A stretch of DNA of 64,000 nt from Tetracentron sinense (Eukaryota > Streptophyta > Magnoliopsida > Trochodendrales > Trochodendraceae), in the NCBI GenBank assembly GCA_015143295.1, contig CM026566.1, positions 7,675,072 through 7,739,071 of the forward strand, written 5' to 3'. Under the pieces are notes generated by a model. That model was given only the letters and a program-made list of their open reading frames with translations, ran no database searches and was not told where the DNA came from. Positions 1 through 52,815 of the stretch are shown here, piece by piece (position 1 is the stretch's first letter; each line of letters starts with the position of its first letter). A program made the translations under genes and the position numbers.

Positions 1-1765
1 AGACCCCTCTTATGCAACTTGTGAGGGAAGGTGGTGTGAAACCCTTTCTTATGCAATGCACGTGTCATGCGTATCATGTCATGTATCATGCTTGCTTGCT
101 TGGAAAATAAACATGTTCTTGCTACTTGTGAGGGAGGGCAGGCCGCTCTCCCTAAATGAGAAACAACTTGTGAGGGAGGGGAGAACCATCTTTAACAAAA
201 TGCATTGAATGTAACATGCATGCTTGGAGCGTTCTTGTTTGTGTCAAAAAGCGAGGCAAAATATATCGTAAGATATGCCCTACCTCAATTTACCAACCCT
301 TCCGTTTGGCCTTGTCATAGTGTTCGTGAATCAGGAATAAAACCTTGATTTTTCTTAAAACAAAAACACGGTGTTTAATGCTTGAAACCCTACTCATGGA
401 CTACATGTCGTGCTCGTGATTTCGTGTACAATTAAGGATGACAATGGCAAATAAAGAACATTTTCATTTGATCAACAACTAAATCAAATAATTAAGCAAT
501 TAATCTAACAACATGCCATTCTATGAAGTAAAGAAATTCACACATGCATTTTCTAAGAATCATTATCATTTTCTTCATTTTGGCATTTCATCAAACACTT
601 GGAATGTTTATTATGATTAACACCTAAACCTTGCATTACTAGGTGGGTTAATGTTCACAACACACATGTATGTTTGTTATTGGTACAATACCCTTCCCAT
701 TTCATTCATCACAACAAACACACGACATCCAATCGCCCATTCACCTTCACACAACCATCCACCTTCATCCATTTATCCCATCTCATTATCTTACTTAGAA
801 ATTAGGGAAAAAAAACAAAATGAAGGAAAGCAAAGAAAAGAGATGAACTATAAGGGTATTATAGGGTACCGACCTTGAATAGGTTGAAGAAAACCCTTGA
901 TGTAGCTCATGGAAGGATTTGCCGAGCTTGGAGGAGAACTCCACATTTTGCTTGAGCTTTGATTAGGAAGATCTTGAGATTGGGGAAGAATTTGGAGCTA
1001 ATCCTTCTCTCCAATCTAAAACCCTCTTGGAAATCCCCCTTTCCTCTCCCTTTTCTTCCTTTCTCTTGGTTTAGGAAAGCCCTCAAATGAGAACCCTTAA
1101 TAGATCAAAGGTTTAAAACCCTCAAATTTGGAATCTGCTACCGCATGCGATCGATCGCACTCTTATCTGCGATCGATCGCAGGTCCTTGCAATCGATCGC
1201 ACATGGATGCGATCTATCGCACATAAACCCAAATGTTTTTTGTCTAATTTTCCCTACATGCGATCGATCGCACATACTTGCGATCGATCATAGAACCCTG
1301 CGATCTATCGCACCTGGGGAATCTATCTATCGCATATGGCCCAGAGAGTTTGGGACCCATTTCGCCTGCATGCGATCGATCGCACCTGACTTGCAATCGA
1401 TCGCACACTCCAGATTTTGTTATTTTCTCCTATTTTTCCCTAGTTTGGTAATTCGGCCATAACTTTTGACTCGGTTGTCTGATTTTGACGATTCAACTTG
1501 CGTTGGATTCATCTTTCAAATGGGAACATTTCTGGCATTAGAATTTCTAATTTCTTCTTTATTTATTGACCAAATTTATCCTAAAGTTGACTAATCCGCA
1601 AATGAGATTCAGTAACTCAGGTTTTCGATATATCCAACTTAGGAATACTACTTCTTAACACTTAGATTTCTTTAAATTTTCTCATTTCATAGAAATAGGA
1701 GGATTACAAAGGCATAATGCCTTGGCACGGATCCCAATACATGGCAAAAGTTTCGAGGTGCTACA
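1..1765 (-). mobile_element. Ty3/gypsy LTR, reverse strand, runs off the left edge
   Basis: On the reverse strand this LTR begins at 1765 (TGTAGCACC) and its 3' end lies outside the window. In transcription order it has the shared pre-promoter module (about 1510-1440), a palindrome array (1405-1146), a splice-donor-like site near 874 and G-rich tandem repeats (190-1). The first 60 bases nearly match 51649-51710 in the solo LTR at 50912-53413, so the two belong to one subfamily. It interrupts the RNase H frame of a copia element that resumes at 1766; the right target-duplication half would be 1766-1770 (TAGAA). The short open frames inside (651-878, 1145-1462) look like chance readings. Confidence 0.8.
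1146..1405. promoter_or_regulatory. Palindrome array TGCGATCGATCGCA, ten copies
   Basis: Ten 14-bp sites start at 1146, 1168, 1188, 1208, 1259, 1279, 1299, about 1320, 1371 and 1392. Five are perfect palindromes and the rest carry one to a few changes, mostly transitions. Steps are 20-22 bp inside groups and 51 bp between groups. The array lies between the pre-promoter module and the transcribed part of the reverse-strand LTR, where an enhancer would be expected. Function is inferred. Confidence 0.75.
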
Positions 1766-1766
1766 T

Positions 1767-1898
1767 AGAAAGGCAAGAATTATTGTTACAAAGATTAGGT
1801 CTCAACTTAATGTTGCTGACCCGATGACTAAGGCTTTATAAGTTAAAGTATTTGTAACACACTTAGATAGTATGGGATTGAAATCTATGACACAGTGA
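1767..1898 (+). pseudogene. Copia RNase H C-terminal fragment
   Basis: The frame starting at 1767 reads the end of a Ty1/copia polyprotein, with the family hallmark NVADPMTKAL followed by a premature TAA and then VKVFVTHLDSMGLKSM, ending at a TGA at 1896-1898. The upstream part of the pol gene is cut off by the gypsy LTR ending at 1765. A purine-rich tract (about 1908-1919, AAGTGGGAGA) follows, which primes plus-strand DNA synthesis in this family, and then the 3' LTR starts. The order RNase H, polypurine tract, LTR makes the assignment firm although only about 43 codons are present. Confidence 0.85.
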
Positions 1899-1919
1899 CT
1901 TTTAGGGCAAGTGGGAGAT

Positions 1920-5890: not shown

Positions 5891-7440
5891 TAGCTCTTTG
5901 ACCTGAGGGTCATACGGTGCTCTAATTCTTCTTTCTGGTTCCGCATTTGTTCGACCTCAGAATTGGTTGACATCTCTGGACGGAGGCCGTTGATGACGAA
6001 TAGTTGTCATCATTACTGCGAAGGTCACTGGATTAACACCTCTGAATGCATTTGGACCTAACCTGAACAACAAGTTCCTGTCTGCTAGTGCTGAGTCCAG
6101 GTTTGTATTTGTATTAACAGCCGAGTGACTTTGATCACGACTGTTAATGCCCCTTGTGTAGTTTGAAGAAACTTGCAAGTTCGCACTTTTACTTCTTGAT
6201 CTAATAACATCATTGATAATATCATGAGGTATTGAGTGCTGTCCCAGGGGGACTCTGTTCCTGTTGGCCTTTAACTGCCAACTTTTCTCTTTCTTGGAAG
6301 AAGAACTGTCTGTAGATGATGTTGAATCTATCCACAGGTCCCTTCTTCTCTTAAGAGGGACTTATCCGTGGATGCTTCTATCCGTGGACTCAGGTCTGCT
6401 TCTAGACCTGTCTACGGAGTTGTTTGCAACTCTGCCCACGGGATAAGCCTGGGCTGGACCCTTGGGTTTGGCTGGGCTTTAGGTCTGTGGAGCCTGATTA
6501 GTGTCTGCGGATACCCCTTGCTCACGGAGTGGCCTTGACCACTTCCTCTTCTGTCCGCAAGATTATCTTGCAGACTAGTTTTCTGATCCGGGAATCAAGT
6601 CTGCGGATTAGTTCCCTGCAATTTTATTGGGGAAGTTTTTGTAAAGTCCTTTAGGCCAGTGACCTTGTTCTTTTGTCCTAAGATAATTTGGGCAGTGTCT
6701 CCCTTCTGTTGATAAACTTTTGAAGGGTGAGTCCTACCAACCAACTTGGGCTGGGGGATCTCAACAGTCTGTCTTAAGATCGACCCGTAGGGCTTTTCCT
6801 CTTTAGACCTTTACTGGCTTATGGTTTGGGCTCGAAACGAGCTTGCTCCATTAGTTAACCCCAAAGGGTTAACAGATTTGGAATCCCCTTTCAGGGTTTC
6901 CGGTGACATAGGTTTGCCTTTTAGGCTGACCTGTCACGAAGTGACTGAGCCACTTTGCCTTGTGTGCACCCGGTTAGGTGCACCCTCCTTGGTATCTATG
7001 GAAAGATATGTCTTCGAATGGCCACTTCTTTTCTAAGGTGCTCACGGGTTGGCTAGCATCCTCTGGGATGCCCGCCGGCTAGTGACCTGCTCTTAGTGGG
7101 CAGCCTGATGTGGGCGGGCTACCTGCCTTTGATTTAGGCAGGCAAACTGCCTTTCCACCCCTGAGTTGATAGGGTGGGTTCTACTTCTGCTGTGGACTGG
7201 GGCGTCTTCAACAGAAGCCTGGTCTAGTGACCGCGGCCTTTTTGTAGAGGTCTGGCCAGTTGGCCGGACCTGCGTGGCTAGAGCTGCTACTACCTTGGAC
7301 CTGGTGAGTGGATGAGTCACCAGGATCCGGATCGGGGGTACATACACCCGCCGGTTAATGGTCAGGATGTAAACCCAACAAATGCAGAAGGTCTCGATGA
7401 TCCTGGTTAGCAATAATAAGAAAAGAGAGGAAATGATCAC
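5891..7440 (-). pseudogene. Unrecognised decayed frame, perhaps Tat-like gag
   Basis: The reverse strand has two longer open segments, 7093-7440 (basic, Arg/Ser/Thr-rich) and 5957-6178 (with a polar stretch rich in Asn, Asp and Arg), joined by sequence with several stops. The region is more GC-rich than its AT-rich neighbours. Composition and position beside the CCCACCGGGCGTGCCA motif at about 7507 suggest the 5' coding part of a Ty3 Tat/Ogre-like retrotransposon, but I see no conserved gag, protease or polymerase motif. Words such as TCCGTGGA, TCTGCGGA and TGTCCGCA recur between 6300 and 6620. It could also be another element type. Confidence 0.3.
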
Positions 7441-8895
7441 TTATCTTTTCTTTTTTTTGTTCTTCTGATTTTTTATCCTTCTTCAAAGATGAGAGGAGAA
7501 GAAAGTCCCACCGGGCGTGCCATTAATTTGTAAGCGTAAAATTTTGTCTTTGCTTATCAAATTTCCTCCATTGTTGTATGGAGTTTATTATTTTTTGTGG
7601 GGGACTATCCTTCCAATCTGAGTAAACTCAAACTGTTAATTACCTTCCTTATTTGGGGAAAAACCTCTGATTAAGAAGAAAAATAATAAGAAGAGCAAAG
7701 ATTGAATAAAATATATTTATTTATTCAATGGGGTTGCCCAAATCCCATGTAGGCGTTACAAGATACCTCATAGAGGTTTTAACATCAAAAAGAAAGAATA
7801 AGAAAGAGAAGTGGCCATATTGAGGGTTCACCTGGTATTCTCCATTTGGTGGAGATCCTTCTTCTTCCTCCTTGGTTGCTATTGTTTTTCTACTTTTCCT
7901 CTTCTTGTACGTACGTGGGTGTATTTTTTACCTTAGCAGTTTCTTTCACAAGAAACTCCCTCTTTTATATCTTTTGGAGAGTCCTCTTTGGACTCCCCTT
8001 TGACTTCCTATTTTTTTAAGAAATCAAAAGAGGTCAACTCTCCATAGAGAGGGCCATCTGTCCAAGACTGCTGGTTTCTCTTATCTTAGAGAAACCATAC
8101 GGAAGGGAGTCCTTTTTGAAGGACTCCAAATTGGTCTCCTTTTCTAAGAAACTTGGAAGGATCCAACTTTTCCCCCCAAAAAAGGAGAAAGATTCTTATC
8201 TTTCCAGAAATGGGAAGAGATAACTTCCCCTTTCAGATAGGGTGCCATATGGCACTCTCTTATTAGAGAAAGAGAGGGGATCTCTATCTTGGGATCCCCC
8301 AAAGCTGGCAGAGATTCTTTTTTGTTAAGGATTCCCTGTCACATGGCGGTTAGATACTGGCTACCATCTGGGAAAGGACTGTCCTTGGTCAGTCCACAAA
8401 TTAAAGAAGTGAGACCATGGGTCTCACCCACGGTTTAAATTATGTCAAAAGCCTATTTGGGCCGCGGACTAGGGTCTAACCTTAGTCAGTCCGCAGACCA
8501 ATACAGGGTGGGACCATGGGTCCAACCCTTGGTCTGGGTTAAGTCTATGGCCTTTTAAGGTCACGAACTGGGCTAGTCATTGACTGGCCATCGGATGGAC
8601 TCATGGAGTCTGTCCGCAAGCTTGAATAAGGGTCTGTCCGTGAGGGCAAACCCTATACACATCTCAATCCTCTAATAATTGACACACATGGGTGTCCGCG
8701 GGGCATTATTGCCCTGCTACTAGCATTTAATGCTAGGCAAGCTGGCGGTAAGCCAACCCTTGGCCAGCTGAGCGCGTGTCTTTGGCATGTGCGGAGCTTA
8801 ACCGCCTATTCAATAGGTGGTGATCATGTATAGGCAGGTACACCATGCACCCATCTTGCGGGCGGTGAGATTTCACTACCCACAGGGTTGAGAAC
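7441..8895 (-). mobile_element. Probable LTR or leader of the Tat-like element, reverse strand
   Basis: Mostly non-coding. A CCCACCGGGCGTGCCA motif at about 7507 resembles a sequence I associate with the LTR/leader junction of plant Tat-type elements (from memory). From 8400 to 8720 the words CCGCGGAC, GTCCGC and GTCCGTG recur. I could not find TG/CA ends or a target duplication, so the borders are only where neighbouring elements become recognisable. No gene is visible. Confidence 0.3.
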
Positions 8896-14947: not shown

Positions 14948-15506
14948 TGTAAGACCCCAAAACTTTGGGTCATAGCCTGTGAATAGTGTTAGTGAATAGT
15001 GTTCGAAGGCTTGAAGCCTTTTGTATGGTCATTACCTTGGTTATTGAGAATGAAGGCTGAGGCTTCAATTGTGTTAATGTGTATCGCGTATGTTCTAAGG
15101 TCCTAAGGACCATTAAAGTACTTAAAGAAAGAAAAAGCCTAAGCCAATGAGAAAGAAAATGAGAAAATTAGAAAAAAAAAAAAACAAGGGTGACCATTCG
15201 AACGGTTCCCATAACCGTTCGAACGATCCCAGTGGATGATGAATAAAACATCAGCATTTGAAGACAATAAGCTAAACCGTTCGAACGGTTCATGACCGTT
15301 CGAATGATCCCAGTAAAAGTTGAATCAGAATTTCATAAACGAAAAACAGTAGGCATCACCGTTTGAACGATCATACCACCGTTTGTATGATCAAAAGACC
15401 ATTCGAATGTTCATGCACAGTAAAGTCGCAAAACAACCCCAAATGCGAGATTTTTAGGATTTTATCCCTTTGGGCTATAAATAGAAGCCATTTTCATGGG
15501 ATTAAG
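14948..15506 (+). mobile_element. Gypsy-type LTR, 5' portion only
   Basis: Begins TGTAAGACCCCAAAACTTTGGG and shows the gypsy-LTR trait GTGAATAGTGTTAGTGAATAGTG. It holds a palindrome array (15193-15411) and the TATA box TATAAATAG at 15476-15484. It is cut at 15507 by a copia LTR, and I do not find its 3' part. The five bases before it (TGGAG, 14943-14947) would be its left target duplication. Confidence 0.72.
15193..15411. promoter_or_regulatory. Palindrome array ACCGTTCGAACGGT, seven copies
   Basis: Sites start at 15193, 15214, 15276, 15295, 15358, 15378 and 15398. The copy at 15276 extends to a perfect 16-bp palindrome, AACCGTTCGAACGGTT; others have one to four changes. Steps are 19-21 bp within groups and 62-63 bp between groups. 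The TATA box follows 65 bp downstream. Confidence 0.75.
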
Positions 15507-16164: not shown

Positions 16165-17192
16165 AGAGGATGCATCCAACCTCGGCATCAGTCTTAGTCT
16201 ACCTACTTTTGGACCGATAATGGCTAACATCGCCTTTAAGCCTTGCATCTTGGGACCGGATCCAAGAATTGCAAGAATCAAATACCCAGTTACTTGCTTA
16301 CCGAGACAAGATGATTAGCAGGGATAGCGAGGATTTCGCCACAAGTGGAGATGGAACTCTCACATTCAAGGGAAGAACATGTGTTCCTGACGACGAAGAG
16401 CTTAAAAGAGAGATCTTGGATGAAGCTCACCGGTCCAAGTATACCATTCATCCCGGGGCTGCCAAAATGTATAAAAACTTGAAGGGGTACTTTTGGTGGC
16501 GGAACATAAAGAGATAAGTGGCCGAGTACGTGTCCCGATGCTTGGTGTGTCAGCAAGTCAAGGCTGAGCACATAAGACCGGCGAGTCGATTACAGTCACT
16601 CCCTATTCCTGAGTAGAAGTGGGAGTACATCTCCATGGACTTCATACTTGGCTTGCCACGGACGGCAAGGAACTCGGATGCAATATGGGTTGTGGTTGAC
16701 CAACTAACTAAGTCTGCTCATATCTTTCCATACCAGACTACATTCAACTCGAATCAGTTTGCGGCATTGTATGTCAAAGAAATAGTTCGGTTGTATGGAG
16801 TCCTAGTGAGTATCGTGTCAGACAGGGATCCAAGATTCACCTCCAGGTTCTGGAAGAGCTTCCATATCACAATGGGTTCCCGTTTGGACTTTAGCATGGC
16901 CTTTCATCCTCTAACCAATGGGCAAACTAAGAGGGTGAATCAAATTATCGAAGACATGCTTCGAGCCTGCATGCTAGATTTCAAAGGTAGTTGGGAAGAC
17001 CACTTACCATTGGTTGAATTCGCTTACAATAACAGTTATCAAGCGAGCATCCAAATGGGGCCTTTTGAGGCTTTGTACAGGAGAAGTTGTAGATTCCCTT
17101 TGTATTGGGATAAAGTCGGAGAAAGAAAAGTTTTGGGCCCCGAATTGATTGAGCAGACTACTGATAGGTCAAGCTTATCCGGGAGAGGTTGA
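16165..17192 (+). pseudogene. Chromovirus (Tekay/Del-like) integrase, catalytic Glu replaced by Lys
   Basis: From about 16269 the frame reads the gypsy RNase H/integrase linker (DGTLTFKGRTCVPDDEELK), then the zinc-binding domain with His residues in AHRSKYTIHPG and Cys residues in CLVCQQVK. A TAA at 16515 and a TAG at 16614 interrupt it. The core from 16635 has MDFILGLP (first Asp), VSDRDPRF (second Asp) and, exactly 35 residues after that Asp, Lys in NGQTKRVNQ where the family has Glu. One G-to-A change explains it and destroys the DDE triad. The frame is lost near 17185. The 5' part of the element is absent; a copia LTR fragment abuts it. Confidence 0.88.
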
Positions 17193-17578
17193 AGACCGCA
17201 TAAGATCGACAGAAGAGTTATGCCGACAACCGAATGAGAGATCTTGAATTTCGAGTTGGCAACTTGGTCTTTGTTAAAATTTCACCGACCAAGGGCATTA
17301 TGAGATTTGGGAAGAGAGGCAAGCTCAGTCTGAGATATGTGGGGCCATTCGAGATCATCACTAGAGTTGATCACGTGGCTTACCATGCTGCCTTACCCGC
17401 TCATATGGCAACGGTCCACAATGTATTCCATGTTTCTATGCTTCGGGAGGACCTCACCTTAGTTGAGCAACCAGTTCAAATTTTGGACAGGCGAGATCAA
17501 ATCCTGCACAACAAGATCATTCCATTGGTCCTAGTGAGATGGCAACACCATTTAGTAGAAGAGGCTACGTGGGAATGA
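17193..17578 (+). pseudogene. Chromovirus integrase C-terminus with chromodomain-like tail
   Basis: In a different frame from the core, this segment gives the GPY/F region (LSLRYVGPFEIITRV, YHAALPAHMATVHNVFHVSML) and ends in a chromodomain-like tail, ILDRRDQILHNKIIPLVLV, then RWQHHLVEEATWE, stopping at 17576-17578. In chromoviruses this domain targets integration to heterochromatin. The polypurine tract AAGGGGGGGAGA and then the 3' LTR follow within 30 bases, the normal end of this element type. Separation from the core by a frameshift near 17185 marks it as a pseudogene. Confidence 0.85.
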
Positions 17579-17816
17579 GGACGAAATTTTTGTAAGGGGG
17601 GGAGAATGTAGCGCCCCGGAACTTTCCGTACCTAATGAACAGTGTTTTCATAGCCAATTGACCTTTCACTTAGTCCAATTAATAATTTATGAAGAATTGG
17701 ATGTCGATAACCCATGGGCAGCGTGAAGAAGGGAGTTTAAGACCCTAAAAAGCATGGGAGCAAGGTTGCAAATACCCCATGGGGTCTGCAGGTGAAAAGG
17801 ATGAAAAACTGGGATT

Positions 17817-17994
17817 GACGATCGATCGTCACATGGCGACGATCGATCGTCATGAGCCCAAAAATCTGGGCAACTCACTGGATCATGAACAATTGATCCT
17901 CACAAACTAATAATCGATCGTCTGGAGACAAAAATCTGGGCAAGCTTACTAGAGTGTGGACAATCGATCGTCCCAAGATCGACGATTGATCATT
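17817..17994. promoter_or_regulatory. Palindrome array GACGATCGATCGTC, three pairs in a 71-bp repeat
   Basis: Six 14-bp sites start at 17817, 17838, 17888, 17909, 17959 and 17981, giving steps of 21, 50, 21, 50 and 22. The first two are perfect and extend to TGACGATCGATCGTCA at the first site. AAAAATCTGGGCAA lies in both 50-bp gaps, so the array is a 71-bp tandem repeat with two palindromes per unit. The TATA box follows 58 bp downstream. Confidence 0.8.
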
Positions 17995-22435: not shown

Positions 22436-23044
22436 TGTAGAACCCCGGATTTTCATGGCATGGCATGGTGAATAGTGTTGTGAATAGTGTCTAAAGCTTA
22501 AAGCCTATTGTAATGCCTTGAATGATTATCAATGATAATGAAAACATGGTTTTGATATATTTCAAGTGTATGATGTGTTATGGCATGTATTAAAGCCTTA
22601 AGAATATTTTCTTAAGTTTATGGGTGTTTGGGATGAAGGAGTAAGAGTATAAAATACTCATTACCCTCAACTTTAAGAAGCTCTAGTTTTGTCACCGTTG
22701 ATCGGAATCGAATGATTCTTAAACCATTAGAAAGGTATTGAAACCCTCTTCGAGGTTCATGTTGATCATTTTTTCAGATTTTTAGTCAAAGATAGGTTAA
22801 ATGTTAGATTTCCGAAATCGGGTCTGCTGAAAATGTGGACTGCTGAAATCCATTCCAAACCAATCAGCTTTAGATCCCATTTAGTTAATTTAGAACTTAG
22901 AATTAGGATTTTTCTATTAGACACAAAATTGTTCCCCTTTGAACGAAGATTCCAACTCAATTTGAATCGTCAAAATCCAATAATCGAGTCAAAATTTATG
23001 GTTGAAATATCAAAGTGGGAAAAACTCACGACAGTCAGAGTTCT

Positions 23045-23143
23045 CAGACGTCGACGTCTGCAACCAGACGTCAATGTTTGTGCACAAACAGAAGCAAAAA
23101 ACATCTCAAACGTCGACGTTTGAGACCCAGATGTCAACGCCTA
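23045..23143. promoter_or_regulatory. Palindrome array CAGACGTCGACGTCTG, four copies
   Basis: Dyad centres fall at about 23052.5, 23072.5, 23114.5 and 23135.5, that is, steps of 20, 42 and 21 bp. The first is a perfect 16-bp palindrome and the third a perfect 18-bp palindrome (TCAAACGTCGACGTTTGA). The other two are degenerate. The TATA box follows at 23226. Confidence 0.75.
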
Positions 23144-25377: not shown

Positions 25378-25622
25378 TGTAGCATCCTGGAACTTTTCGT
25401 ACCAATGAATAGCATTCTCATAGCCAATTGGATTTTCACGTAGTTCAATTAATAAATGAGGAAGAATTGGAAGATTCTAAAACACCAGAAATGCTCCTCT
25501 TCGAATGACGAGTCCAACGCAAGTTGAATCGTCAAAATTTGACAAACGAGTCAAAAGTTATAGCCGAAATACCAAAGTGGGAAAAATGAGAGAAAACAGC
25601 AAAATGGGCAAAACACAAGGAA

Positions 25623-25777
25623 TCGGTCGATCGAATTTGCTACCGGTCGACCGAACAGCCACCGGTCGACCGATACCCATTACCGGTTGATCGAACATCA
25701 TACTTTTCGTATGGGCTTTTATTCCAAAGAGGTCATTTTTGACCGGTCGATCGAAGGTCACCACCGGTCGACTGGTC
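25623..25777. promoter_or_regulatory. Palindrome array CGGTCGACCG, six copies
   Basis: Dyad centres lie at about 25628.5, 25648.5, 25667.5, 25688.5, 25748.5 and 25769.5, giving steps of 20, 19, 21, 60 and 21 bp. The second and third copies are perfect. Each is preceded by AC or TC in the same context. The TATA box follows at 25854. Confidence 0.75.
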
Positions 25778-28912: not shown

Positions 28913-29071
28913 AAGGATCTATCCGTCATGAGCACGGATAGATCCTTCAAAAAAACCCTTACTGCCAAAAAAACCCATACAAAATTGGGCTTGGTCGATC
29001 GATCGGTCATGAGGATGGATAGATCCATCAGTGTATGGGATTGAAGGATCTATCCTCCCCAAACTAGATAG
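28913..29071. promoter_or_regulatory. Palindrome array GGATCTATCC/TCGATCGATCGG, degenerate
   Basis: Dyad centres fall near 28919.5, 28940.5, 29000.5, 29021.5, 29050.5 and 29070, steps of 21, 60, 21, 29 and about 20 bp. The first two sites form a larger inverted repeat with 14-bp perfect arms, 28913-28926 (AAGGATCTATCCGT) and 28934-28947, around a 7-bp loop. A clean CGATCGATCG core is at 28996-29005. Confidence 0.65.
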
Positions 29072-31064
29072 ATGAAGGCACTATTCATTCCTTCATTTTT
29101 CCCACTGTGGTATTTTGACCATAACTTTTGACTCGATGATCAAAATTTGACGATTCAACTTGCATTGGATTCTAAATTCAAAAGGGAACAACTTTCATGT
29201 TTTGTACAAAGCCTAATTATTCTATCTTCATATTCCAAAATGGTCTTAAAGGCTACTAGTCAGGAATTTCAGCACACAAATTGCCTAAAACCCACTTTTC
29301 ACCGAGCTTTGACTCAAAATCGGGAAATGTGATAAAAATGAACCTCGAAGAGGATCTTGATATCTTTCTAATGGATCAAGAATCACTCAATTCCAATTTT
29401 GGATGAGAAAACTAGAGTTCTCTCAAGTTGAGGGAATTTTTAAAAATCCCTCTTTGCGACACTTAAGGATATTGCATCCTCTTGTTTCATTTTCATCCCA
29501 ACCAACACCCTAAAACATTTTTCACACATATTTTGTCTCATTTGAAACCCCATTTCATTTTAAAACATGAAGCCATCATCCCATTAAGGTTTTTGGCCTG
29601 GAAAAATACTATTCACAGCACTATTCATAGCACTATTCACAGCCTAGGGAACTCGGTTCCGGGTTCTACACCCTTCAAGTTTCTTCATTGTATTTTTGCA
29701 AAAGAGGGGGTTTTACACTTCCCTCCCTTCAAGTTGCTTTATTCCATGTTTCACAAAAGAGGGGGTTTACACCACCCTCCCTTCAAGTTGTTCAAGGGCA
29801 CTAACATCCCAAGTGCATGAGCATGTAAATTCCAAGCAAGCAAGCATGAGCATTTTAATTTCATGGCATGACATGCATGACATGACATGACATGACACGC
29901 ATAACATGACATGGCAAGCATAACACGACAAGACAAGCAAGACAGAACACGACAAGACAAGTTTTCAAACACGAAAAGAGTATTTCAAGTCAAGTCAAGC
30001 AGACAATGATTTCAAGAGTTTTCTCAACTTTGATGTGATGCAAGCATGAAATATAAACTGTTTATCTTCCTGTTATGATATGAACTTGTAGAACCCTGGA
30101 ATCCGAGTTCACTGTGCTATGAACAGTGTTAGTGAATAGTGCTCTTGTATGGTGTGTGTAAAGGCCTAAAGCCTTCCATTTTGTTCTTGGTAGTAGGGTG
30201 AGTCGAGTGAGGGTTTTAGATGTGTGTGTTGAGTCTCAAAAAGAGAGTATAAATATACTCTAAGTGTGTAGAACCCCGGAACCGAGTTCACTATGCTATG
30301 AATAGTGTTAGTGAATAGTGTCCTTATATGGTGTGTGTAAAGGCCTAAGGCCTCTCATTTTGTTCTTGATATTATGATTAGTCAATTGAGGGTTTTAGGT
30401 ACATGGTTTGAGTCTTAAAAAGAGAGTGTAAAGATACTCTAAGTGGGTAAAATCAAGGGTACAAATACCCTAAGTGTTTCAATGGGTTGCTGGTGAATAG
30501 TGCTAGTGCATGAGGAATAGAGAGGCCGGAGCCTCTCATGCGTGTCGGTGTGAATTTGATGATCATTGAGGTGGGTTAAAGACTTATGAAAAATGATTTA
30601 TGAGTTGTGAGTAGGATGTTGGACACAAGGGGAAAGAGTGTGAAAACACTCGAGGTGTTCTAGGTGTTGAAAAGGTATGTCTTGGCATTGGCTTCAACTT
30701 TAAAGGGCTCTAGTTTAGTCACCATTGTTCAGAATCGAGTGATTACTGAATTTTTGGAAAGGTATTAGAACCCTCTTCAAGGTTCATGTTGATCACTTTC
30801 CATGATTTTAAGTCGGGGTTGAGTCAAAAGTGGGATTTCCAAAATCAGGTCGGCGGCAAATCTGGGCTGTCGCAACCCATTGCAAACCAGTCAGCTTTAG
30901 GGGAATTTTGGTCTATGAATAAAGAAGAATCAAAATTTCTTCAAAAAATGAAAATTGTTCCTCTTCGAAAGACGAATCCAACGCAAGTTGAATCGTCAAA
31001 ATCGGAGAACCGAGTCAAAAGTTATGAGCAAAATACTGAAGTGCGTTTTGCAGCACCAGTCACT

Positions 31065-31160
31065 ACCGAGAGCTCGGTCCACTACCGAGAGATCGGTCAA
31101 AAGCACCGATCGATCGGTCCACTACCAATCGATCGGTCATCTATCGGTCGTCTATCGGTC
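31065..31160. promoter_or_regulatory. Palindrome array ACCGATCGATCGGT, about six copies
   Basis: Dyad centres are at about 31071.5, 31090.5, 31111.5, 31130.5, 31141.5 and 31152.5: steps of 19, 21, 19, 11 and 11 bp, so one or two helical turns. The copy at 31105-31118 is perfect; the one at 31065 has an AGAGCT core. The last two are half-degenerate. Confidence 0.75.
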
Positions 31161-32745: not shown

Positions 32746-34002
32746 TGGAAAGGAAAACTCATAAGGACTCACATGATTCATGGACAATGGTTTGGACTTC
32801 ATGAAAATTATGATTTGGTAAATGTTTATGTATTATGTTGCTTTAAATAACTATGATGTGTACTATTCCATCACTTGTATATGTTATTTACTCGTTATTA
32901 CTATGGTTAGCTAGGAGCTTGTACCCGCTGAGTATTCCATGCTCAGCCGTACTTTTATGTCGGCAGGTACAATATATGTTGTATGCATTCTGGGTCCGTG
33001 GATCGAGGTTATCAGAGAGAGTAGGAGCTTGTTTGGAATTGTCACCAGACATTGGGGGCTTGGATATGTGGTACTATGGTGGGGTTGAGTGAGAGAGACA
33101 TGTATTTTGGGATTTACTCTTGGGGGGATTTTCATGTAGGCTTGAATTGGTAATTCAAGCATTTGTACATCTGTATTATTGTATTTTATTCAGTCGTTCG
33201 TTTATGTAAACACTTGGAATTACCTTTTTGTTAAAGAAAATTTTAGTTCACTGTTTAGCTTGCCTTGTATGCTCTTGCAGGTTGGTTGTCGTGGTAGGTA
33301 ACGAGCTCAAATATCGCCTAACTCCTAGGGGGTGTTTTGGGGCGTTACAAAGTGGGTAAAAACAAGGGTATATGAAATACCCTAAGTGCTTAAAGGGTTG
33401 TAAGTGAATAGTGCTGTGAATAGTGCAGTAAACAGTGTTTGTGAGGTCCAAGGTTCCCTAGGTTCTTATGAATGATATGAGGAGTTTATCATAGGTTTTA
33501 TGGTGTGTGAGGGTACTAAAGAACCATCTTTGATGTTTATGGGTGTGAAAATACAAAGGGGAAATGTTCTTAGTGTTAAAAGAAGAGGGATGCCTAAACA
33601 TACTCTCAACTTTGAAGAGGTCTAGAATTTTCACCGATGATTAGAATCGAGTAATTCTTAAATTTTTGGAAAGGTATTGAAACCCTCTTCGAGGTTCATG
33701 TTTTCCACTTTTTCATATTTTGAGTAAACGTTGGGTCAAATGTCAGATTTCCGTAAACTGGTCTGCCTTAAATCTGAAATCCATTTCAGACCAATCAGCT
33801 TTATGGTCACTTTAGTGTATGAATAAAGCAGAATTATGAGTTGTGTAAAACATGAAAGTTGTTTTCCTTTGAAATAAGAATCCAAAGCAAGTTGAATCAT
33901 CAAAATTGGATAACTGAGTCAAAAGTTATGGTCAAAATACTAAAGTGGGAAAACGAGGCCCAAGCAGAGTGCCATTTCGGCAACAAAGTGTGCTGGGGGG
34001 TT

Positions 34003-34020
34003 GATTTCGTCGACGAATTC
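34003..34020. promoter_or_regulatory. Single palindrome GATTTCGTCGACGAATTC
   Basis: Lies between the pre-promoter module and the TATA box at 34124, the slot that holds palindrome arrays in related LTRs. The inner twelve bases are a perfect dyad. A second site about 30 bp upstream (GCCATTTCGGCAAC) is only loosely symmetric. Confidence 0.55.
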
Positions 34021-37770: not shown

Positions 37771-38049
37771 CATCCCAGTCTCAGGGGAGCAGGCCCCCGA
37801 TTCGACAGCCTTCTCAGTAAGGCTCTTCACAGACATCAAAGCCCTCACAGTCTACACGACTGCCTCGCCAGGTAAAACAGGGCCGAGTCTTTGCCATAGA
37901 CAAATAGGATGCACAGGCATCTGACGATGTTGTGCAAGGTACACTAGGGTGCTAAAATTTTCAAGTTGGTGAATGCTTGCTATTATATGATATAGTTGCT
38001 TACCTATACAACATGTTACTTATACACTATGGATATTTTTGCTTGAAAT

Positions 38050-38432: not shown

Positions 38433-39265
38433 GGGTTACAAAGGAGAGACATCACTCGTTTCGCAGCACTAAGCCTTTCAAACTCAGAGGCACGAGACTC
38501 CTCAACCATTCCGGTTGTGAGCAAGTACTTGGACGTGTTTCCCGAGGAATTGCTTGGATTGCCTCCAGATCGGGAGATCGAGTTCGCAATAGAGCTTGCT
38601 CTGGCACTGCTCCAATTTCTAGGGCTCCATACAGGATGGCCCCAATATAGCTTAAGGAGTTAAAGGAGCAGATTGAAGAGTTGCAACAACTTGGTTTCAT
38701 CCGACCAAGTGTGTCACTTTAGGGAGCTCTGGTACTCTTTGTGAAGAAGAAAGATGGGTCGATGAGGATGCGCATCGACTATAGCCCATTGAACAAGGTC
38801 ACGATCAAGAATCATTATCCTTTACCTTAGATACACGACTTGTTTAACCAATTGAAAGGAGCAAGATTTTTCTCCAAGATTGATCTTTAATCGGGTTATC
38901 ATCAGTTAAAGATCAAGGCCAAAGATGTTCCTAAGACTACTTTCAAGACTCGGTACGGGCACTATGAGTTCCTTGTCATGCCTTTCAGGTTGACGAATAC
39001 ACCTGCGGCATTCATGGATTTAATGAACCGGGTGTTCAGAACTTGTCTAGATCGATGTGTCATTGTGTTCATTGATGACATCTTGGTGTACTCCCAGACA
39101 CGGGAGGATCATGATCGAGACCTTCACCTTACTCTTGAGACACTTCGAGAGCATAGACGGTATACCAAGTTGAATAAGTGCAAATTTTGGTAGGAGAAAG
39201 TGACGCTCCTTGGTCACGTGGTATCAGCCGAAGGTATTTCAGTGGATCAAGCAAAGATAGAAGTT
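38433..39265 (+). pseudogene. Gypsy reverse transcriptase, N-terminal two-thirds (broken, truncated)
   Basis: Blocks in order: EYLDVFPEELLGLPPDREIE (about 38525), PYRMAPI then [22 protein letters not shown] (38730 on), KARFFSKIDL-like segment followed by TAA, and an open piece 38978-39193 with [19 protein letters not shown] and the catalytic FIDD at 39068-39079. It then reads LLGHVVSAEGISVDQAKIE and ends near 39265, where the sequence changes to a copia integrase fragment. RNase H and integrase are missing. At least six in-frame stops are visible. Confidence 0.88.
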
Positions 39266-39454: not shown

Positions 39455-41213
39455 TTGATTTTGATGATAACACAATAATGAAAGGATATTTGTGTTACTA
39501 ATGTGTCTATGAGTTTAAGTGAACTTCAGTTAACCTAGAGCATTAGCAATTCATTCAAAAGAAAAAGCATGAAAAGACCATCTATGAAGAAGATTCATCA
39601 AGCAAGTCAAAACCAAGCCATTGGATCACTTTGAAGTCAAATTAAAGATCTTCTAGATCTCAAGCCATAGTCCAAGTTGGATTAAAGAAGAAAGAAGATC
39701 ATGAAGCTTAAAGTCAAATCAAGTTCAAGGTCAAGAATGAAGACTCAAGAAGGTTTAATAGTTTATGTTTATTGAGTCTATAGTGACTTTTGTAAGAAGT
39801 CCTCATAGTTGGTCAAGTTGAATGCTCAAAATACTTAGATTGACTAAAGACTCCTTAAGACCCATTATGATATCAATCTAAGGACCTAAACATGATAATT
39901 TTCTGGTGAAATTTGGTCATTTGGACGACTAAAAGGTTCACTCGGTCAACCGAATCAAGAATCCCAAAATCTATCTGGCCATGTGTTCCAAAAAACCAGT
40001 CAACTTCGGGACCCATTTTGACCAAGAATAAAGCCAAATTAGGATTTGATCATTAGAGACAAAACTGTTCCCATTTGCATTTTAAGTAGAATTGGAATTT
40101 GAATCACCTAATTTCATTAAGCCAATGAAAGGTTATGGTCAAAATACAGAAGGAGTCAAAACGGTGCACCATTCAGTCGACTAAATGGACCAGTCGACAT
40201 TGGGACCCACTTAGACTAAAAATAAAGTAGAATTAAGATTTTTATATTAGACATAAAATTGTTCCTCTTTGAATTTTGAGTCTACTGGAAATTGAATCAC
40301 CTAATTTCGATAAGCCAATCAAAAGTTATGATCGAAACACCGAGAGGAAAAAATGGAGCATCCGGATGACCCAAGAAATGGAATCACCATTGGGACGTCC
40401 GAATGAACCATTTGGACGACCGAATGGCTCAGGACAAAGCATTTTTGACTCTATAACGGCTAGTTTTCAACGGCTCCTTTTGTACTAAATGCTACTCCAA
40501 CAGCCATGAAACTTCTTAGGCTATAAAATGAAATAATTTATGAACAAAATAAGAACTCCAATCAATCTAGATCATTCAATCATTCACTTCAAGCTTAGAT
40601 TTCTAAATATATCAAAGTTGAACCAAGAATCCCCAAATCTCAGTTCTTGAGCTATTCAACTCCTATCTTTGGAAGATCTTCAAGTGAGCTAAGAGAGACT
40701 AATCAGCTCGAGTAAGGAGCCTCTAAAGTCTGTAAAACCACTTGTTTAAGTGTGTTCAAATCAAGAGGTCCTAGGGACTCTTGTCCGTGAAGCCGAAGAG
40801 CTTTGTAAAGGCTTGATCTCGCCGGTGAAGAAGATTGTAAAGTTCTGGCCTCTACCCGGAAAGGGGGCTAAGTCTAAGAAGGATTGTTCCTTAGCAAGGT
40901 TAGGACTCGCCTGCAAGAAGTCTATGCAATTTGGGAATAAAATCGTGGGAATCCTTGAAGCAGGAAGCGGAAAGACGGGGATGTAGACAAGTTGTCAAAC
41001 CTCCTGAACAAATCCTTAGTGTCTATGTGTTTGAATCTCTCTAACTCTATCTCTTACTTTATTGCGTTGAATGCTTGAGTAGAATTGCATAGTCTCTTTT
41101 TCTCTTTAACTTACTTAAGTTGAAATTCCTCTTAGGGAAGTAGAATAAATTTTAAATTTGCCATTGACCCTAATCAACCCCCCTCCCCCTCTAGGGTCAA
41201 TACTTGGGCAACA
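39455..41213 (+). mobile_element. SIRE-like copia 5' LTR
   Basis: The 3' end is firm (…GGGCAACA at 41213, followed by the primer site). The 5' end is approximate, near TTGATTTTGATGATAACAC. Two tandem copies of a pre-promoter module lie at about 40030-40160 and 40200-40345, with near-palindromes between and after them. A TATA-like CTATAAAATG is near 40520. The part from 40589 on is repeated as the truncated 3' LTR at 43738-44344. The small frames at 40276-40488 and 40750-40986 are not genes. Confidence 0.8.
39920..40424. promoter_or_regulatory. Three pairs of near-palindromes in the copia LTR
   Basis: Centres near 39926.5 and 39947.5 (21 bp apart, TTTGGACGACTAAA and CTCGGTCAACCGAA), near 40178.5 and 40195.5 (17 bp, both with GTCGAC), and near 40396.5 and 40417.5 (21 bp, TTGGGACGTCCGAA and TTTGGACGACCGAA). 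A weaker site is near 40367. The last pair lies about 100 bp before the TATA-like box. Confidence 0.55.
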
Positions 41214-41215
41214 AT

Positions 41216-41227
41216 TGGTATCAGAGC
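41216..41227 (+). other. Primer binding site, exact initiator methionine tRNA type
   Basis: TGGTATCAGAGC starts two bases after the LTR end. It fixes the 5' LTR border and the plus orientation of this element. Confidence 0.9.
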
Positions 41228-41289
41228 CTAGGTCTCTGTTTTTATAGAAGATTTAACCATCTTAGAGAAAAGATTTTTAATTGGCAAAA

Positions 41290-43737: not shown

Positions 43738-44344
43738 AGCTAAGATTTCTAAATATATCAAAGTTGAACCAAGAATCTCCAAATCCCAGTTCTTAAGCTA
43801 TTCAACTCCAATCATTGGGAGATCTTCAAGTGAGCTAAGAGGGACTAATCAGCTCATGTAAGGAGCCTCTGAAGTCTGTAAAACCACTTGTCTAAGTGTG
43901 TTCAAATCAAGAGGTCCAAGTGACTCTTATCCGTGAAGTCGGAGAGCTTTGTAAAGGCTTGATCTCTCCGATGAAGAAGATTGTAAAGGTCTGGCCTCTA
44001 CCCCGAAAGGAGGCTAAGTCTAAGGAGGATGGTTCCTTAGCAAGGTTAGGACTCGCCTACAAGAAGTCTATGCAATTTGAGAATTAAGTCGTGGGAATCC
44101 TTGAAGCGGGAAGTTGAAAGGCGAGGACGTAGACAAGTTGTCGAACCTCGTGAACAAATCCTTAGTGTCTATGTGTTTGCATCTCTCTTACTTTATTGCT
44201 TTGAATGCTTGAGTAGAAATGCATAGTCTCTATTTCTCTTTAAATTGCTTAAGTTGAAATTCCGCTTAGGGAAGTAGAATAAATTTTAAATTTGCCATAG
44301 ACCCTAATCACCCCCCCCCCTCTAGGGTCAATACTTTGGCAACA
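43738..44344 (+). mobile_element. SIRE-like copia 3' LTR, 5'-truncated
   Basis: Aligns with 40589-41213 of the 5' LTR with scattered substitutions and ends CTTTGGCAACA. The first 1.1 kb of the LTR, including the promoter region, is absent: the polypurine tract is joined directly to GCTAAGATTTCT, matching GCTTAGATTTCT of the 5' LTR, which suggests a deletion at a short shared sequence. The frame at 43896-44087 is the LTR counterpart of 40750-40986. Confidence 0.82.
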
Positions 44345-45777
44345 ATTGTCGAGTTTATGTGTGAAAGCAGAACTTTGACAAGTTTAAAAGTAGGACTGAG
44401 AAGTACCTATTTATAGGTATAAGATATTATCCCGTAAGCTTATAACAATATTAGAAGTGGAAGGACGTATCTGTAAACAAATCTTGTAGAAATACTTGCA
44501 AGTAATTGTCTATTTTCTGGGGGTTAGTCACATTGTGTTAATGGATATTATTGTGATTGGTGGAAGTCCAGAGACATAGATGATAGTCTGTGATCCTAAT
44601 GGTTTTATAGGAAAGTGTTTCCTAGTAACAAGGCTTTAACCAAAAGGGTTAAGCACTTGGTCCCACAACCAAAAATAGGAGATCCCTTTAGATCCCACAC
44701 ACTAGGACCTTCTTAAGGCTTTTAATTTAATTATTAATTAAATTAATTAATTTCTCTAAAAATATCACTATATGGTATAGTGAAGCTCTAATAGGTGAAA
44801 TCACATAGGATGTGATTAAACATATGAGTAGGACCCATAGGGGATTTTAATAAAGATCAAATAATGACCAAAAGAGTTTGGAATTCTTTGATGGGCGTGT
44901 GGAAGTGAGTCCACCTAGGGTGGGATGCCCACTTCATGTGGAACCTTATCTCTTAGTTAGTTAGGTGATCTTATCTCCTAATAGTTAGGGATTAGATTGC
45001 TTTGTTGCTAATTAAAGAATCTCTATTAAATAGGGATTACATTAGTTTGTTACTAATGATTCCCTATTAAGATAAGGATAAGATTAGTTTGTTACTAATT
45101 AATTATCCTAATAGATAAGTATAAGATTAGTTTGTTACTAATGGGTAAGGTTAGTTTCTTGCTAAGATAAATCCTGATTAATTGGGAATTATCATTAAAG
45201 AATCTTTTGAGGGAATTCTAATTGGATTAGGATAAGAGAGGGGAGTCTTGGATTGCAAGTAAGCAATCCAAGAGGTTCTATATAAAGGGTGGAATGTCCA
45301 CCCCTTGGAAAAAATCTTCCCCAACGTTTTTCTCTCTCCCTCCTCAATAACTCACGCCCCCATCTCCCTCTTGTGGTAGTTGTAAGGTCATACTCTCATA
45401 TTCTTCCCTCTTGGTTTTGATTTGGATCTTGAACAAAATCAGAACCAATCTTGTTAATCAAGAAAGGATCTTGCGTTCAAGAGAAGAATAAAAGATCATA
45501 GAGCTTGAATTGGAAGAGCCATTAACTTCCATTAGAGAAAAGATTTAAAGGATTAAAGAAGGTTCATGTGAATCGTGAATGAGACTTTTCACTTACAAAC
45601 TTTTGCAGCCATCGTTCTATAACATGGATTAGACTGATCAATATTAAAGTCGCAAAGGTGATTGTTGTTTTTATCCTTCATTGAATAAAATCAATTAGAA
45701 CTATAGTCAGATCTTGGGATTCGTTGTATGCCCTCCTAAGAACTATTTCTCTAAAATTAAAAAGAGGCATACTTTCA
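44345..45777 (+). mobile_element. Copia LTR fragment, family C type 2
   Basis: Aligns with the solo LTR 8996-11087 from about its position 9765 to its end (CATACTTTCA at 45777). TATA-like CTATATAAAGGG is near 45279. The left end is cut by the SIRE-like element. The segment 44960-45180 repeats (A/G)TTAGTTTGTTACTAAT about four times, a feature also seen near 10360-10500 in the solo copy. Its right side abuts an inverted LTR of another copia element, GTCTC (45778-45782) being its possible target duplication. Confidence 0.78.
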
Positions 45778-46175: not shown

Positions 46176-46191
46176 ATCTTCCACTTACCCT

Positions 46192-50911: not shown

Positions 50912-51636
50912 TGTCGCACCCCAAAACCCACCCTAGGAGTTAGAGTGAATTTTGGACAACTTATCATGACTTGCATGACTTGCTTGACAAACCAACCTAC
51001 AAAATGTACCTGGAGCATATACAATAGAGGACATAAAAGCGGAAACATAACTACAAAGCATAGCGGAAGTCTAACTAAAACCTCTATGTGTATATATACA
51101 TGATCCAAGTGATACAAAAGATACACAAAAGAAAGTGCGGACAGGCCTGCCAAAAGACATCAATCTAATCTCTCAAGCTCACACTCACAGCAAATCACTC
51201 AGAATCTACTACCTAGTGGTAGCCCTCTATGGGAGGTTCCTCAACGTACTCCTCTTGCACCCATGGGCCAGGAGCACATATGTCGAATGGAGCAGCAGCT
51301 CCCTCAGTACCTACCGACATAAACGTACGGCTGAGCATGGAATACTCAGCGTGTACCAAATACTAACTAACAGTCATAGCATAGCAATCAATCACAATAT
51401 AAAGCAGGAAGCAGTTAGTATAAATAACAAGAAAGAAAACAATATATATTTCATGCTTGCATCACATAAAAAGCCAGGAAAAACTCTTGAAAATCATCGT
51501 GCACTTGACTCGACTTAAAACACTCTTTTCGTGCTTGAAAACTTGTCTTATCGTGTTTTGTCATGCCTGTCTTATTGTATCATGCGTGTCATGTCGTGTC
51601 ATGTCATGTCATGTCATGCTTGCTTGGAATGAAATG

Positions 51637-51910
51637 CACTTGTGAGGGAGGGGAGACCCCTCTTATGCAACTTGTGAGGGAAGGTGGTGTAAAACTCCTT
51701 CTTATACAATGCACTTGCAAGGGAGGGGAGACCCCTCTTTTTATATGAATGCAATTTGTGAGGGAGGGTGGTATAAAACCCCCTCTTATGCACTTGCGAG
51801 GGAGGGGAGACCCCTCTTTTTATATGAATGCAACTTGTGAGGGAGGGTGGTATAAAACCCCCTCTTATGCACTTGCGAGGGAGGGTGGTGTAAAACCCCC
51901 TCTTATGTCT
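51637..51910 (-). repeat. Tandem repeats with GTGAGGGAGGG words
   Basis: About seven units alternate between ACTTG(T/C)GAGGGAGGGGAGAC and ACTTGTGAGGGAGGGTGGTG types, 40-70 bp each, all followed by CCCCTCTT. Reverse-strand counterparts are in the outer LTR at 26690-26710 and 29671-29800. The overlapping frames at 51563-51961 come from the repeat. Confidence 0.7.
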
Positions 51911-52730
51911 TGTCTTGGCATTCGTGAATCGAGCATTTAAAACCCTTATGCTTGGAAACATCGATAAACCATGTCATGCATGTCGTGCTTATGAATTTGG
52001 GTACATACTATAACTTGGAATTAAACATGACATATGGGATTTCATAGCATACAATTCATTTAAAAGAAACATTCATTTACCACATGCCGTTCTAGAAAGT
52101 AACACACTAACATAAACCCTAGAATTTTCATGCTTTTCTTTATTAATAAATCATCCAATCCATCCATCATACATTGTGTGTTCATTATTTGGTAAAATGC
52201 CCTTCCCATTTGTTTCATCACATCACACACATGGCATCCTTCGCCCAACATCCTCCATTCATTCACCCCATAGCATTAACATATTTAGATAATGAGGAAA
52301 AATCATAGAAATGAAGAAAAATGAGAAAAATATGAACTAGAAGGGTAGAAAAAGGTACCAACCTTCAAATAGGAGAGAATCCCACAAAAATGGTCGTAGA
52401 AGTTGTTATTCGTGCTTGGAGGAGGTGCTCTTTGCTTGCCTTGCCTTGGATTTGAAAAATCCAAGGGTTTGAGGATGATCTAACACGAGCTTGGGCTTGG
52501 AGATGGAGATCCACACTCTAAGAAGAAGATTCAAGCTTGTGGAAGCTTAGAGAAGGGAGGATTTCGAGCTCCTCCTTGGTCTCCCACAAAATCCCTCTTT
52601 GGAAACCTAGGTTTCCTTATTTTCCCTCAAAAAGTCCATTTTTAAGTGTTAGAAACCTTAAAACCCTGAAAATTGGGTATATATATTGTGTGGGTTGTGA
52701 AAAACCCAAAAAATAACATTTATGGGAAAT

Positions 52731-52815
52731 CTCACTCGAGCGGGCTTGGGTCTCGCTCGAGCGAGTTACTCCCGGGACTCAAAAACTCATTTTTGGTTAA
52801 TCTCGCTCGAGCGAG
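52731..52815. promoter_or_regulatory. Palindrome array CTCGCTCGAGCGAG, three copies
   Basis: Sites at 52731-52744 (two changes), 52752-52765 (perfect) and 52802-52815 (perfect), with steps of 21 and 50 bp, the same as in the array at 17817-17994. On the reverse strand the TATA-like run follows about 40 bp downstream. Confidence 0.75.

Follow-up and report, generated by a model that had tools for sequence, protein, structure and literature searches.

Palindromic repeated motifs upstream of the TATA box have been known in the long terminal repeats (LTRs) of Sirevirus retrotransposons since 2010 (Bousios et al., 2010; PMC2829016). In the available text of that paper, these repeated motifs are CpG-rich, lie a short distance upstream of TATA, have a sequence specific to each element, mostly with a CGG-CCG core that one of the 13 published motifs (Tnd-1) lacks, and occur in at least 8 copies per element, with 3 to 14 copies per 3′ LTR in its table. 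The same text describes the motifs as specific to Sireviruses and lacking from the classic Ty1/copia elements in its comparison, and reports that they matched mainly the sites of stress-related factors in a database, naming no common binding factor. A 2016 study, as cited by PMC5311732 and PMC10760457, describes palindrome clusters in the cis-regulatory part of the LTR that are variable and rapidly evolving. Short-motif arrays of another kind occur in VANDAL transposons: the VANC21 motif, YAGTATTAY, is short and always repeated in the same orientation, with the main text of PMC5735166 never using the word palindrome, whereas the VANC6 motifs AGTTGTCC and AGTTGTAC are described as tandem repeats (PMC5735166, PMC10398659). 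Here we analyze arrays of phased palindromes with a common centre in LTR-like sequences of a 64-kb stretch of DNA from Tetracentron sinense (GenBank contig CM026566.1, positions 7,675,072 to 7,739,071; hereafter the window), which by its content appears to be plant nuclear DNA and contains pieces of both gypsy and copia elements.

The closest precedent for these arrays is the Sirevirus repeated motif. In both cases a palindromic motif with dyad symmetry is repeated in the LTR, and in both cases the repeats cluster in a CpG-rich stretch not far upstream of TATA (PMC2829016). The original prediction for this DNA had named VANDAL transposons and their VANC proteins as the nearest parallel, but the Sirevirus motifs, as far as the available text describes them, fit better in symmetry, CpG content, position before TATA and one core sequence. 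That core is the Vitis motif CGGTCGACCG (PMC2829016), which is identical to the core of the array at 25623 (we name each array by its first position); the Tnd-1 motif ACAATCGATTGT in the same source is also centred on TC·GA, as are most palindromes here (the dot marks the dyad). A CGG-CCG core occurs in the 25623 array (as CGGTC·GACCG) and in a Sirevirus-type LTR at 39.9–40.4 kb, and not in the other eight places; by our own reading of the published table, 9 of the 13 Sirevirus motifs contain CGGTC or CGGAC. The arrays differ from the Sirevirus motifs in that most of them probably lie in Ty3/gypsy LTRs and in that the third base of the half-site varies (A, T, G or C). For its own motifs, the available text of PMC2829016 mentions neither a helical phase nor a common TC·GA centre, and neither changes at matching positions nor a module that LTRs share upstream; we also found in it no comparison with Ty3/gypsy elements.

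The palindromes of the 2016 study resemble the arrays in being LTR cis-regulatory clusters with strong predicted secondary structure, and differ in belonging to Ty1/copia Sireviruses and in having been interpreted mainly as small-RNA hotspots, according to the two papers that cite them (PMC5311732, PMC10760457). The likeness to VANDAL elements lies in non-coding arrays of short motifs that differ between related transposable-element families and co-evolve, with protein-guided turnover of specificity (PMC5735166, PMC10398659). VANDALs, however, are DNA transposons with an element-encoded VANC protein, whereas the arrays described here are palindromic and lie in LTR-like sequence. We found neither an element-encoded VANC nor a direct-orientation array in a Mutator-like transposon in the part of the window searched, and the 17 open reading frame (ORF) pieces put to Pfam, a part of those listed, gave no transposase- or VANC-like match. 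The literature listed by our searches, surveyed mostly by title and abstract, held no recognisable report of phased palindrome arrays in Ty3/gypsy LTRs or of the shared module, nor did we meet in it a common centre, a phase of 10.2 bp or palindromes that differ at matching positions. Thus, while palindromic repeated motifs before TATA are already known from Sireviruses, their occurrence in Ty3/gypsy LTRs, the common TC·GA centre, the 10.2-bp phase, the in-place change of palindromes and the shared module appear to be new.

Palindrome arrays in the window

Dyad analyses covered positions 1–54900 of the window. We derived one consensus per array and accepted a site when it had at most 4 mismatches in 14 positions to the symmetric consensus, which gave 43 sites in eight arrays. 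Two further sites of the 28913 array, at 29001 and 29022, were picked by eye for the count of adjacent spacings, and the palindrome at 34003, which consists of one good site and a weak match 30 bp off, was excluded from the spacing counts. The original prediction had listed nine places with palindromes, and both the sequences and the coordinates proved to be as claimed: all nine hold 14-bp dyad sites in LTR-like sequence, and eight of them are arrays. The number of sites per LTR was 3 to 10 in the eight arrays and 1 at 34003 (the elements are fragmentary, and these counts refer to single LTRs).

Perfect 12-bp dyads numbered 61, compared to 16.5 ± 2.8 in 20 dinucleotide shuffles, and those with at least 4 G+C numbered 31, compared to 8.25 ± 2.7. 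A consensus-free search for similar dyads 14–70 bp apart found 54 pairs, compared to a mean of 2.9 (maximum 6) in 10 Markov controls. At distances of 19–22 bp, it found 25 pairs, compared to 0.1 (maximum 1) in the controls. This repetition of similar dyads is the decisive test for the existence of arrays. Sixteen of the 54 pairs fell outside the named intervals, a number that also exceeds the control; a single ATGACAT-type repeat at 29.86–29.91 kb accounts for eight of them, and one further pair belongs to a decayed array at 39.92–40.42 kb that the original prediction had missed. Shuffling each interval against itself (200 shuffles) is a weaker contrast because the intervals consist of motif. 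By this measure, four of the eight arrays exceeded the shuffle maximum (1146, 25623, 28913 and 31065) and three equalled it (15193, 23045 and 52731), whereas the 17817 array and the single site at 34003 fell under it (Table 1).

Site structure and shared centre

Among 121 within-array pairs of sites, identity was 0.83 in the 14 bp of the site, fell to 0.36 in the 4 bp flanking it on either side and was 0.28 farther out. Spacers this close to chance identity indicate that the arrays are not plain tandem duplications, and we rejected such duplication as their sole origin, although higher-order duplications do occur (113 bp in the 1146 array and about 71 bp in the 17817 array). Perfect dyads of at least 10 bp were TCGA-centred in 18 of 20 cases inside the intervals and in 1 of 116 cases outside. 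TC·GA forms the centre of eight of the nine consensus cores; the exception, the core of the 28913 array (GGATCTATCC), is not perfectly palindromic and is centred on TC·TA at four of its five sites, a centre that also occurs at 3 of the 10 sites of the 1146 array. The half-sites, taken as the left arms of the consensus cores, follow CGNTC in six of the nine places and end in TC in all nine. Thus, the core does differ in sequence from array to array, as the original prediction had it, but the cores are not unrelated: they have TC·GA in common at the centre, and most have a half-site of the form CGNTC.

Spacing and helical phase

Adjacent sites lay 19–22 bp apart in 26 of 37 cases, compared to a null mean of 5.9 and a maximum of 15 in 20,000 random placements, and the remaining 11 spacings were 29, 42, 50 (four times), 51, 60 (twice), 62 and 63 bp. 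These values bear out the claim of steps mostly of 19–22 bp with gaps of roughly whole helical turns. When all pairs up to 130 bp were considered (95 pairs), the period was 10.18 bp (10.10–10.22 by bootstrap over the eight arrays, with periods of 9.90–10.40 bp for single arrays) and the mean cosine was 0.82, compared to a maximum of 0.43 in a null of 2,000. Jitter of the gaps alone never reached the observed phasing in 5,000 trials. The consensus-free pairs, which do not depend on the two sites picked by eye, gave a similar result, with a period of 10.16 bp for 71 pairs and a mean cosine of 0.77, compared to a maximum of 0.33 in a null of 3,000; the mean cosine was 0.84 for the 62 pairs left when the 28913 array was omitted and 0.28 for 25 pairs outside the arrays. 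Consensus-free distances clustered at 19–22, 39–42, 50–51, 60–62, 71–72, 81–83, 91–93, 100–103, 110–113 and 120–122 bp, and the phase persisted to ~122 bp, or 12 turns, with three of the 71 pairs off-phase, at 17 and 25 bp.

Free B-DNA has 10.5 bp per turn, which would place the twelfth turn at 126 bp, and a repeat near 10.2 bp is characteristic of DNA wrapped on nucleosomes. The phase measured here, 10.16–10.18 bp, is close to the nucleosomal repeat and not to 10.5 bp, so that, in a more speculative reading taken up below, bound dimers may dock on a promoter nucleosome; alternatively, the 10.2-bp repeat could be imposed by the bound protein. Sharp dyads, a near-fixed centre and a phase of the DNA type together suggest that dimeric proteins bind the sites from one face of the helix. 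Both parts of this proposal go back to the original prediction, and both gain support: the placement on one face from the phase, and the dimeric binding from 14-bp dyad sites set between spacers of near-chance identity.

Two other candidates were rejected. Inverted repeats in the gaps between clusters (CCCA...TGGG and others) gave a lowest shuffle P of 0.054 over 10 gaps, with none below 0.05. Palindromes at integration sites, as described in the available text of PMC6911290, are weak effects with stems of 5–6 bp around insertion sites and do not explain the arrays.

CpG content and changes within sites

The observed/expected ratio of CpG was 1.4–1.7 in seven of the eight arrays and 0.68 in the 28913 array, compared to 0.46 for the window, and it was 0.47–1.08 in the seven conserved modules that precede the palindromes (see below). 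With ratios this high in the arrays, methylation could be central, and the palindromes might be imposed by the host, attracting silencing or insulator proteins or CpG methylation while the elements change sequence to escape. The fact that every array differs in sequence also fits such an origin. A harmful site, however, would be expected to disappear rather than to persist as 3–10 similar, phased copies before a promoter, and we regard host imposition as quite improbable.

Departures from the consensus amounted to 65 changes in 560 letters in seven arrays (28913 left out), including 23 C>T and 22 G>A changes in the sense of the LTR. Equal numbers of these changes are expected of DNA sites and not of RNA pairing with G-U tolerance. 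They speak against an explanation at the level of RNA, in which palindromes of U3, transcribed at the 3′ end of the RNA, would fold into hairpins that serve packaging or dimerisation or, as a by-product, feed the small-RNA silencing of the host. All eight arrays do fold better than 100 dinucleotide shuffles each, with z scores of −4.4 to −7.2, and palindrome clusters of maize Sireviruses are reported as small-RNA hotspots with strong predicted structure in the papers that cite the 2016 study (PMC5311732, PMC10760457). Folding, however, comes automatically with any repeated palindrome, changes of the C>T and G>A types are equally common although only C>T would retain G-U pairs, and an RNA structure leaves unexplained both the 10.2-bp phase over 12 turns and the TC·GA centre. 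An RNA-level origin of the arrays thus seems unlikely, but their strong RNA structure may be relevant for small-RNA silencing.

A conserved module and one homologous array pair

A homologous module precedes the palindromes in seven of the nine LTR-like regions, with homology in all 21 pairs of these seven LTRs. Among all 36 pairs of LTRs, the segment before the array was homologous in 22 (the 21 just mentioned, and 17817 with 25623, whose LTR starts are 82.8% identical over 87 bp), the segment after the array in 9 and the array itself in 1. The original prediction would fail if most other copies of these families were without arrays; within the window, all seven modules outside the Sirevirus-type LTR are followed by at least one palindrome, in one case (34003) by a single good site only, but the LTRs in this comparison had been selected for palindromes in the original prediction. 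Self-comparison of the window detected no other copy of the module besides two in the Sirevirus-type LTR.

The module contains two TTTTGAC cores, for example in 1434–1592 on the minus strand. We take these cores to resemble WRKY W-boxes, and they may represent a second regulatory input.

The sole homologous pair of arrays, 25623 and 28913, shows 64.5% identity across 107 bp (E = 6e-8). Four of the sites align with no gap between them, with dyads 21, 60 and 21 bp apart in both arrays. By our reading of the alignment, the fifth site is displaced by 10 bp, or one turn, and the palindrome differs at four of the five matching sites; the sixth site of the 25623 array has no partner in the 28913 array. 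Between the two arrays, 36 of 60 spacer letters, 21 of 40 arm letters and 12 of 16 centre letters were identical. Arm letters agreed more often within one array (87/120, 0.72) than between matching sites of the two arrays (21/40, 0.53), whereas the reverse was true for spacer letters (35/96, 0.36, within one array and 19/32, 0.59, between the two), although these are small counts from one pair. On the simplest reading, the palindrome would have been exchanged in place at several sites, with one 28913 site keeping the CGATC·GATCG form. The idea that spacing is kept while the palindrome changes is supported.

The same pair bears on neutral repeat dynamics, by which slippage or template switching in reverse transcription, followed by tandem duplication, would generate arrays without function. 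The higher-order duplications of the 1146 and 17817 arrays are of the kind expected, and turnover of tandem repeats is documented for control regions of transposable elements in the available text of PMC5735166. However, near-identical sites are separated by spacers close to chance identity, the phase is maintained across unrelated gaps, the 25623 and 28913 sites changed without replacement of their spacers, and arrays that otherwise cannot be aligned have a common centre. Taken with these results, a purely neutral origin is very improbable.

Host elements

Broken gypsy-type integrase pieces lie upstream of the 17817 LTR and include an SH3_Tf2-1 match (E = 1e-21) followed by a Chromo match (E = 0.062), with rve and Chromo below the Pfam cut-off. 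These pieces may belong to the Tekay/Del chromovirus lineage. Gypsy-type gag, protease and RT pieces lie past 34003, and the 25623 LTR begins like the one at 17817. The remaining LTRs, 15193 apart, are tied to these through chained homology of the module or of downstream parts; because a copia LTR also has the module, the module alone is no proof of a gypsy host. The 15193 array lies about 1.5 kb past copia-looking pieces. As judged from these neighbours and homologies, most array-bearing LTRs are probably of the chromovirus type of Ty3/gypsy, and one is of the Sirevirus type of Ty1/copia.

The Sirevirus-type copia element, at about 39.5–44.35 kb, has the features by which Sireviruses are recognised in PMC2829016, namely the junction of LTR and primer-binding site (PBS) listed in Table 1, poly-C near the LTR end and a copia gag. 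Its polypurine tract (PPT)-AT/TG junction was not found, and its 3′ LTR is without its 5′ part. The second of the two module copies in its 5′ LTR shares 71% identity with the 28913 module across 173 bp (E = 2.6e-22), a homology that scores 98.3 bits, compared to at most 31.1 bits for 300 shuffled versions. Decayed palindromes adjoin the module copies and are 21 bp apart in two cases. The dyads at 39948, 40179, 40397 and 40418 have 2–3 mismatches in 16 and that at 39927 has 5, in a scoring that is partly circular because the consensus was drawn from these sites themselves. No site of this consensus with at most 3 mismatches in 16 was found elsewhere outside the arrays in 1–54900, and the decayed pair 40396/40417 was recovered by the consensus-free search. 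A copia LTR with two modules and a decayed array indicates that the cassette crosses superfamilies. As the 3′ LTR is without the module part, the left border of the 5′ LTR is not fixed, and a chimeric LTR is possible.

Within this 5′ LTR, a unit of module plus palindrome is duplicated, and this part is absent from the 3′ LTR (43738–44348).

In a search for related LTRs elsewhere, the viral contigs scanned held no relative, and plasmid records held no match to one LTR piece. A scan of genome contigs found eight loci with a relative of the gypsy reverse transcriptase (RT), which are probably eukaryotic contamination. The consensus-free search found four dyad pairs at these loci and none at 19–22 bp, but the loci may lack the relevant LTR part.

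A model for the arrays

The arrays are probably cis-regulatory platforms for dimeric DNA-binding factors with turnover of specificity, situated in the U3 promoters of plant LTR retrotransposons. The cassette would read, in order, a conserved module with a length of at least about 165 bp, the palindrome array and TATA. Each 14-bp site would most likely be bound by a homodimer that recognises the nearly invariant TC·GA centre together with a half-site resembling CGNTC, and successive dimers would line up along the same face of the helix, two turns (about 20.4 bp) or 4, 5 or 6 turns apart. Over time, the bound protein, or the family member used by the element, would change, and most sites of an array would change along with it while their positions stay. 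The computations show the size and symmetry of the sites, their common centre and phase, spacers near chance identity, palindromes that differ at matching positions in one homologous pair of arrays, and homology of the module across superfamilies. From these we infer that proteins bind the sites cooperatively as dimers, that they activate transcription and that co-evolution causes the change, and the comparison of arrays suggests that the target sequence of the paired proteins changes faster than the layout of the array.

Several observations weigh against this model. The original prediction had placed the clusters just upstream of a TATA box; a TATA-like box lies 52–112 bp past the last dyad in seven of the nine regions, and no recognisable TATA box was found within 300 bp in the 1146 and 31065 LTRs. 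The symmetric consensus and the limit of 4 mismatches in 14 partly select for high identity within sites, and two perfect dyads inside the intervals are TGCA-centred (23082 and 52823). The phase was measured in only eight arrays of one window, within-array pairs share sites and so are not independent, and neither are the homologous 25623 and 28913 arrays. Several gaps duplicate one another (the two 50-bp gaps of 17817 and the 62- and 63-bp gaps of 15193); when duplicate gaps were collapsed, eight gaps remained and P was 0.001. Strand symmetry is lacking for C>A and G>T changes, of which there are 7 and 1, and changes at CpG letters (32/240) are only mildly commoner than elsewhere (33/320), so that decay of methylated CpG is weakly supported as the source of site changes. 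Finally, between 25623 and 28913 the arms diverge about as much as the spacers (21/40 and 36/60 identical), and positive selection on the sites is thus not demonstrated.

An extension of the model, which we offer tentatively and consider doubtful, is that the cassette of module, phased array and TATA is common to Ty3/gypsy and Ty1/copia elements of one plant and serves dimeric proteins of a family that has diversified, in which the TC·GA contact is fixed and the outer contacts vary, such that each element lineage follows its own member and the dimers may dock on one nucleosome face. Docking of this pioneer style would keep the element open in silent chromatin. To our knowledge, how retrotransposons remain transcribable under silencing and what drives the turnover of control sequences in plants are largely open questions. 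With the shared TC·GA centre, a single testable model of binding could serve many elements. The 10.2-bp phase makes a physical prediction, and the 25623/28913 pair provides a natural experiment on how binding specificity changes in a coordinated manner. If the module is truly common to copia and gypsy elements, promoter parts would move between superfamilies.

Other features of the window

Table 1. Coordinates of arrays, modules and element parts. Dyads are those with at least 5 of 6 pairs, with the maximum in 200 self-shuffles in brackets; the dot marks the dyad.
Feature	Position	Strand	Core	Half-site	Dyads	Remarks
Array, 10 sites	1146..1405	-	TGCGATC·GATCGCA	CGATC	10 (6)	LTR reads on minus strand
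Pre-array module of 1146 LTR	1414..1650	-				
Array, 7 sites	15193..15411	+	ACCGTTC·GAACGGT	CGTTC	5 (5)	TATAAATAG 71 bp past last dyad
Broken gypsy-type integrase pieces	16221..17575	+				Integrase_H2C2, weak rve, SH3_Tf2-1, weak Chromo; upstream of 17817 LTR
Start of 17817 LTR (TGTAGCGCCCC)	17607..17800	+				Directly after purine tract that follows integrase C-terminus
Array, 6 sites	17817..17994	+	GACGATC·GATCGTC	CGATC	4 (6)	Spacings 21, 50, 21, 50, 22
Pre-array module, long form	22659..23030	+				
Array, 4 sites	23045..23143	+	AGACGTC·GACGTCT	ACGTC	3 (3)	Spacings 20, 42, 21
LTR start (TGTAGCATCCTGGAAC) and pre-array module	25378..25605	+				
Array, 6 sites	25623..25777	+	ACCGGTC·GACCGGT	CGGTC	5 (4)	Homologous to 28913 array
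Array, 5 sites	28913..29071	-	4x GGATC·TATCC (either strand), 1x CGATC·GATCG	GGATC	6 (5)	Positions match 25623
Pre-array module, long form	29091..29454	-				
Pre-array module, long form	30677..31048	+				
Array, 4 sites	31065..31160	+	ACCGATC·GATCGGT	CGATC	4 (3)	
Pre-array module, long form	33583..33960	+				
Single palindrome	34003..34020	+	TTCGTC·GACGAA	TCGTC	1 (2)	TATAAATAG 112 bp past dyad
Gypsy-type gag, protease and RT pieces	37108-39190	+				About 3-5 kb past 34003, same strand
Decayed sites, Sirevirus-type LTR	39920..40425	+	ATTCGGTC·GACCGAAT			TATAAAATG 104 bp past last
First module copy, U3 of Sirevirus-type copia LTR	39995..40160	+				
Second module copy, same LTR	40188..40358	+				
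Sirevirus 5′ LTR/PBS junction	41212..41227	+				CA/ATTGG/TATCAGAGC
Poly-C run, same Sirevirus-type element	44311..44344	+				About 22 bp before 3′ end of partner LTR
Array, 3 sites	52731..52815	-	CTCGCTC·GAGCGAG	CGCTC	4 (4)	Spacings 21, 50
Pre-array module, long form	52827..53221	-				

Tandem repeats (TCCGTCCATTCATAGTTCGG...) occupy 35220–35500, between the LTR promoter and the gag of the 34003 element. The region 6000–8000 has a higher G+C content (0.45), and four ORF pieces from it gave no Pfam match. Directly beside the retrotransposon-rich stretch, 34 nearly identical 5S rRNA genes extend over 55427–63995 at a spacing of 256 bp, with one step of 258 bp.

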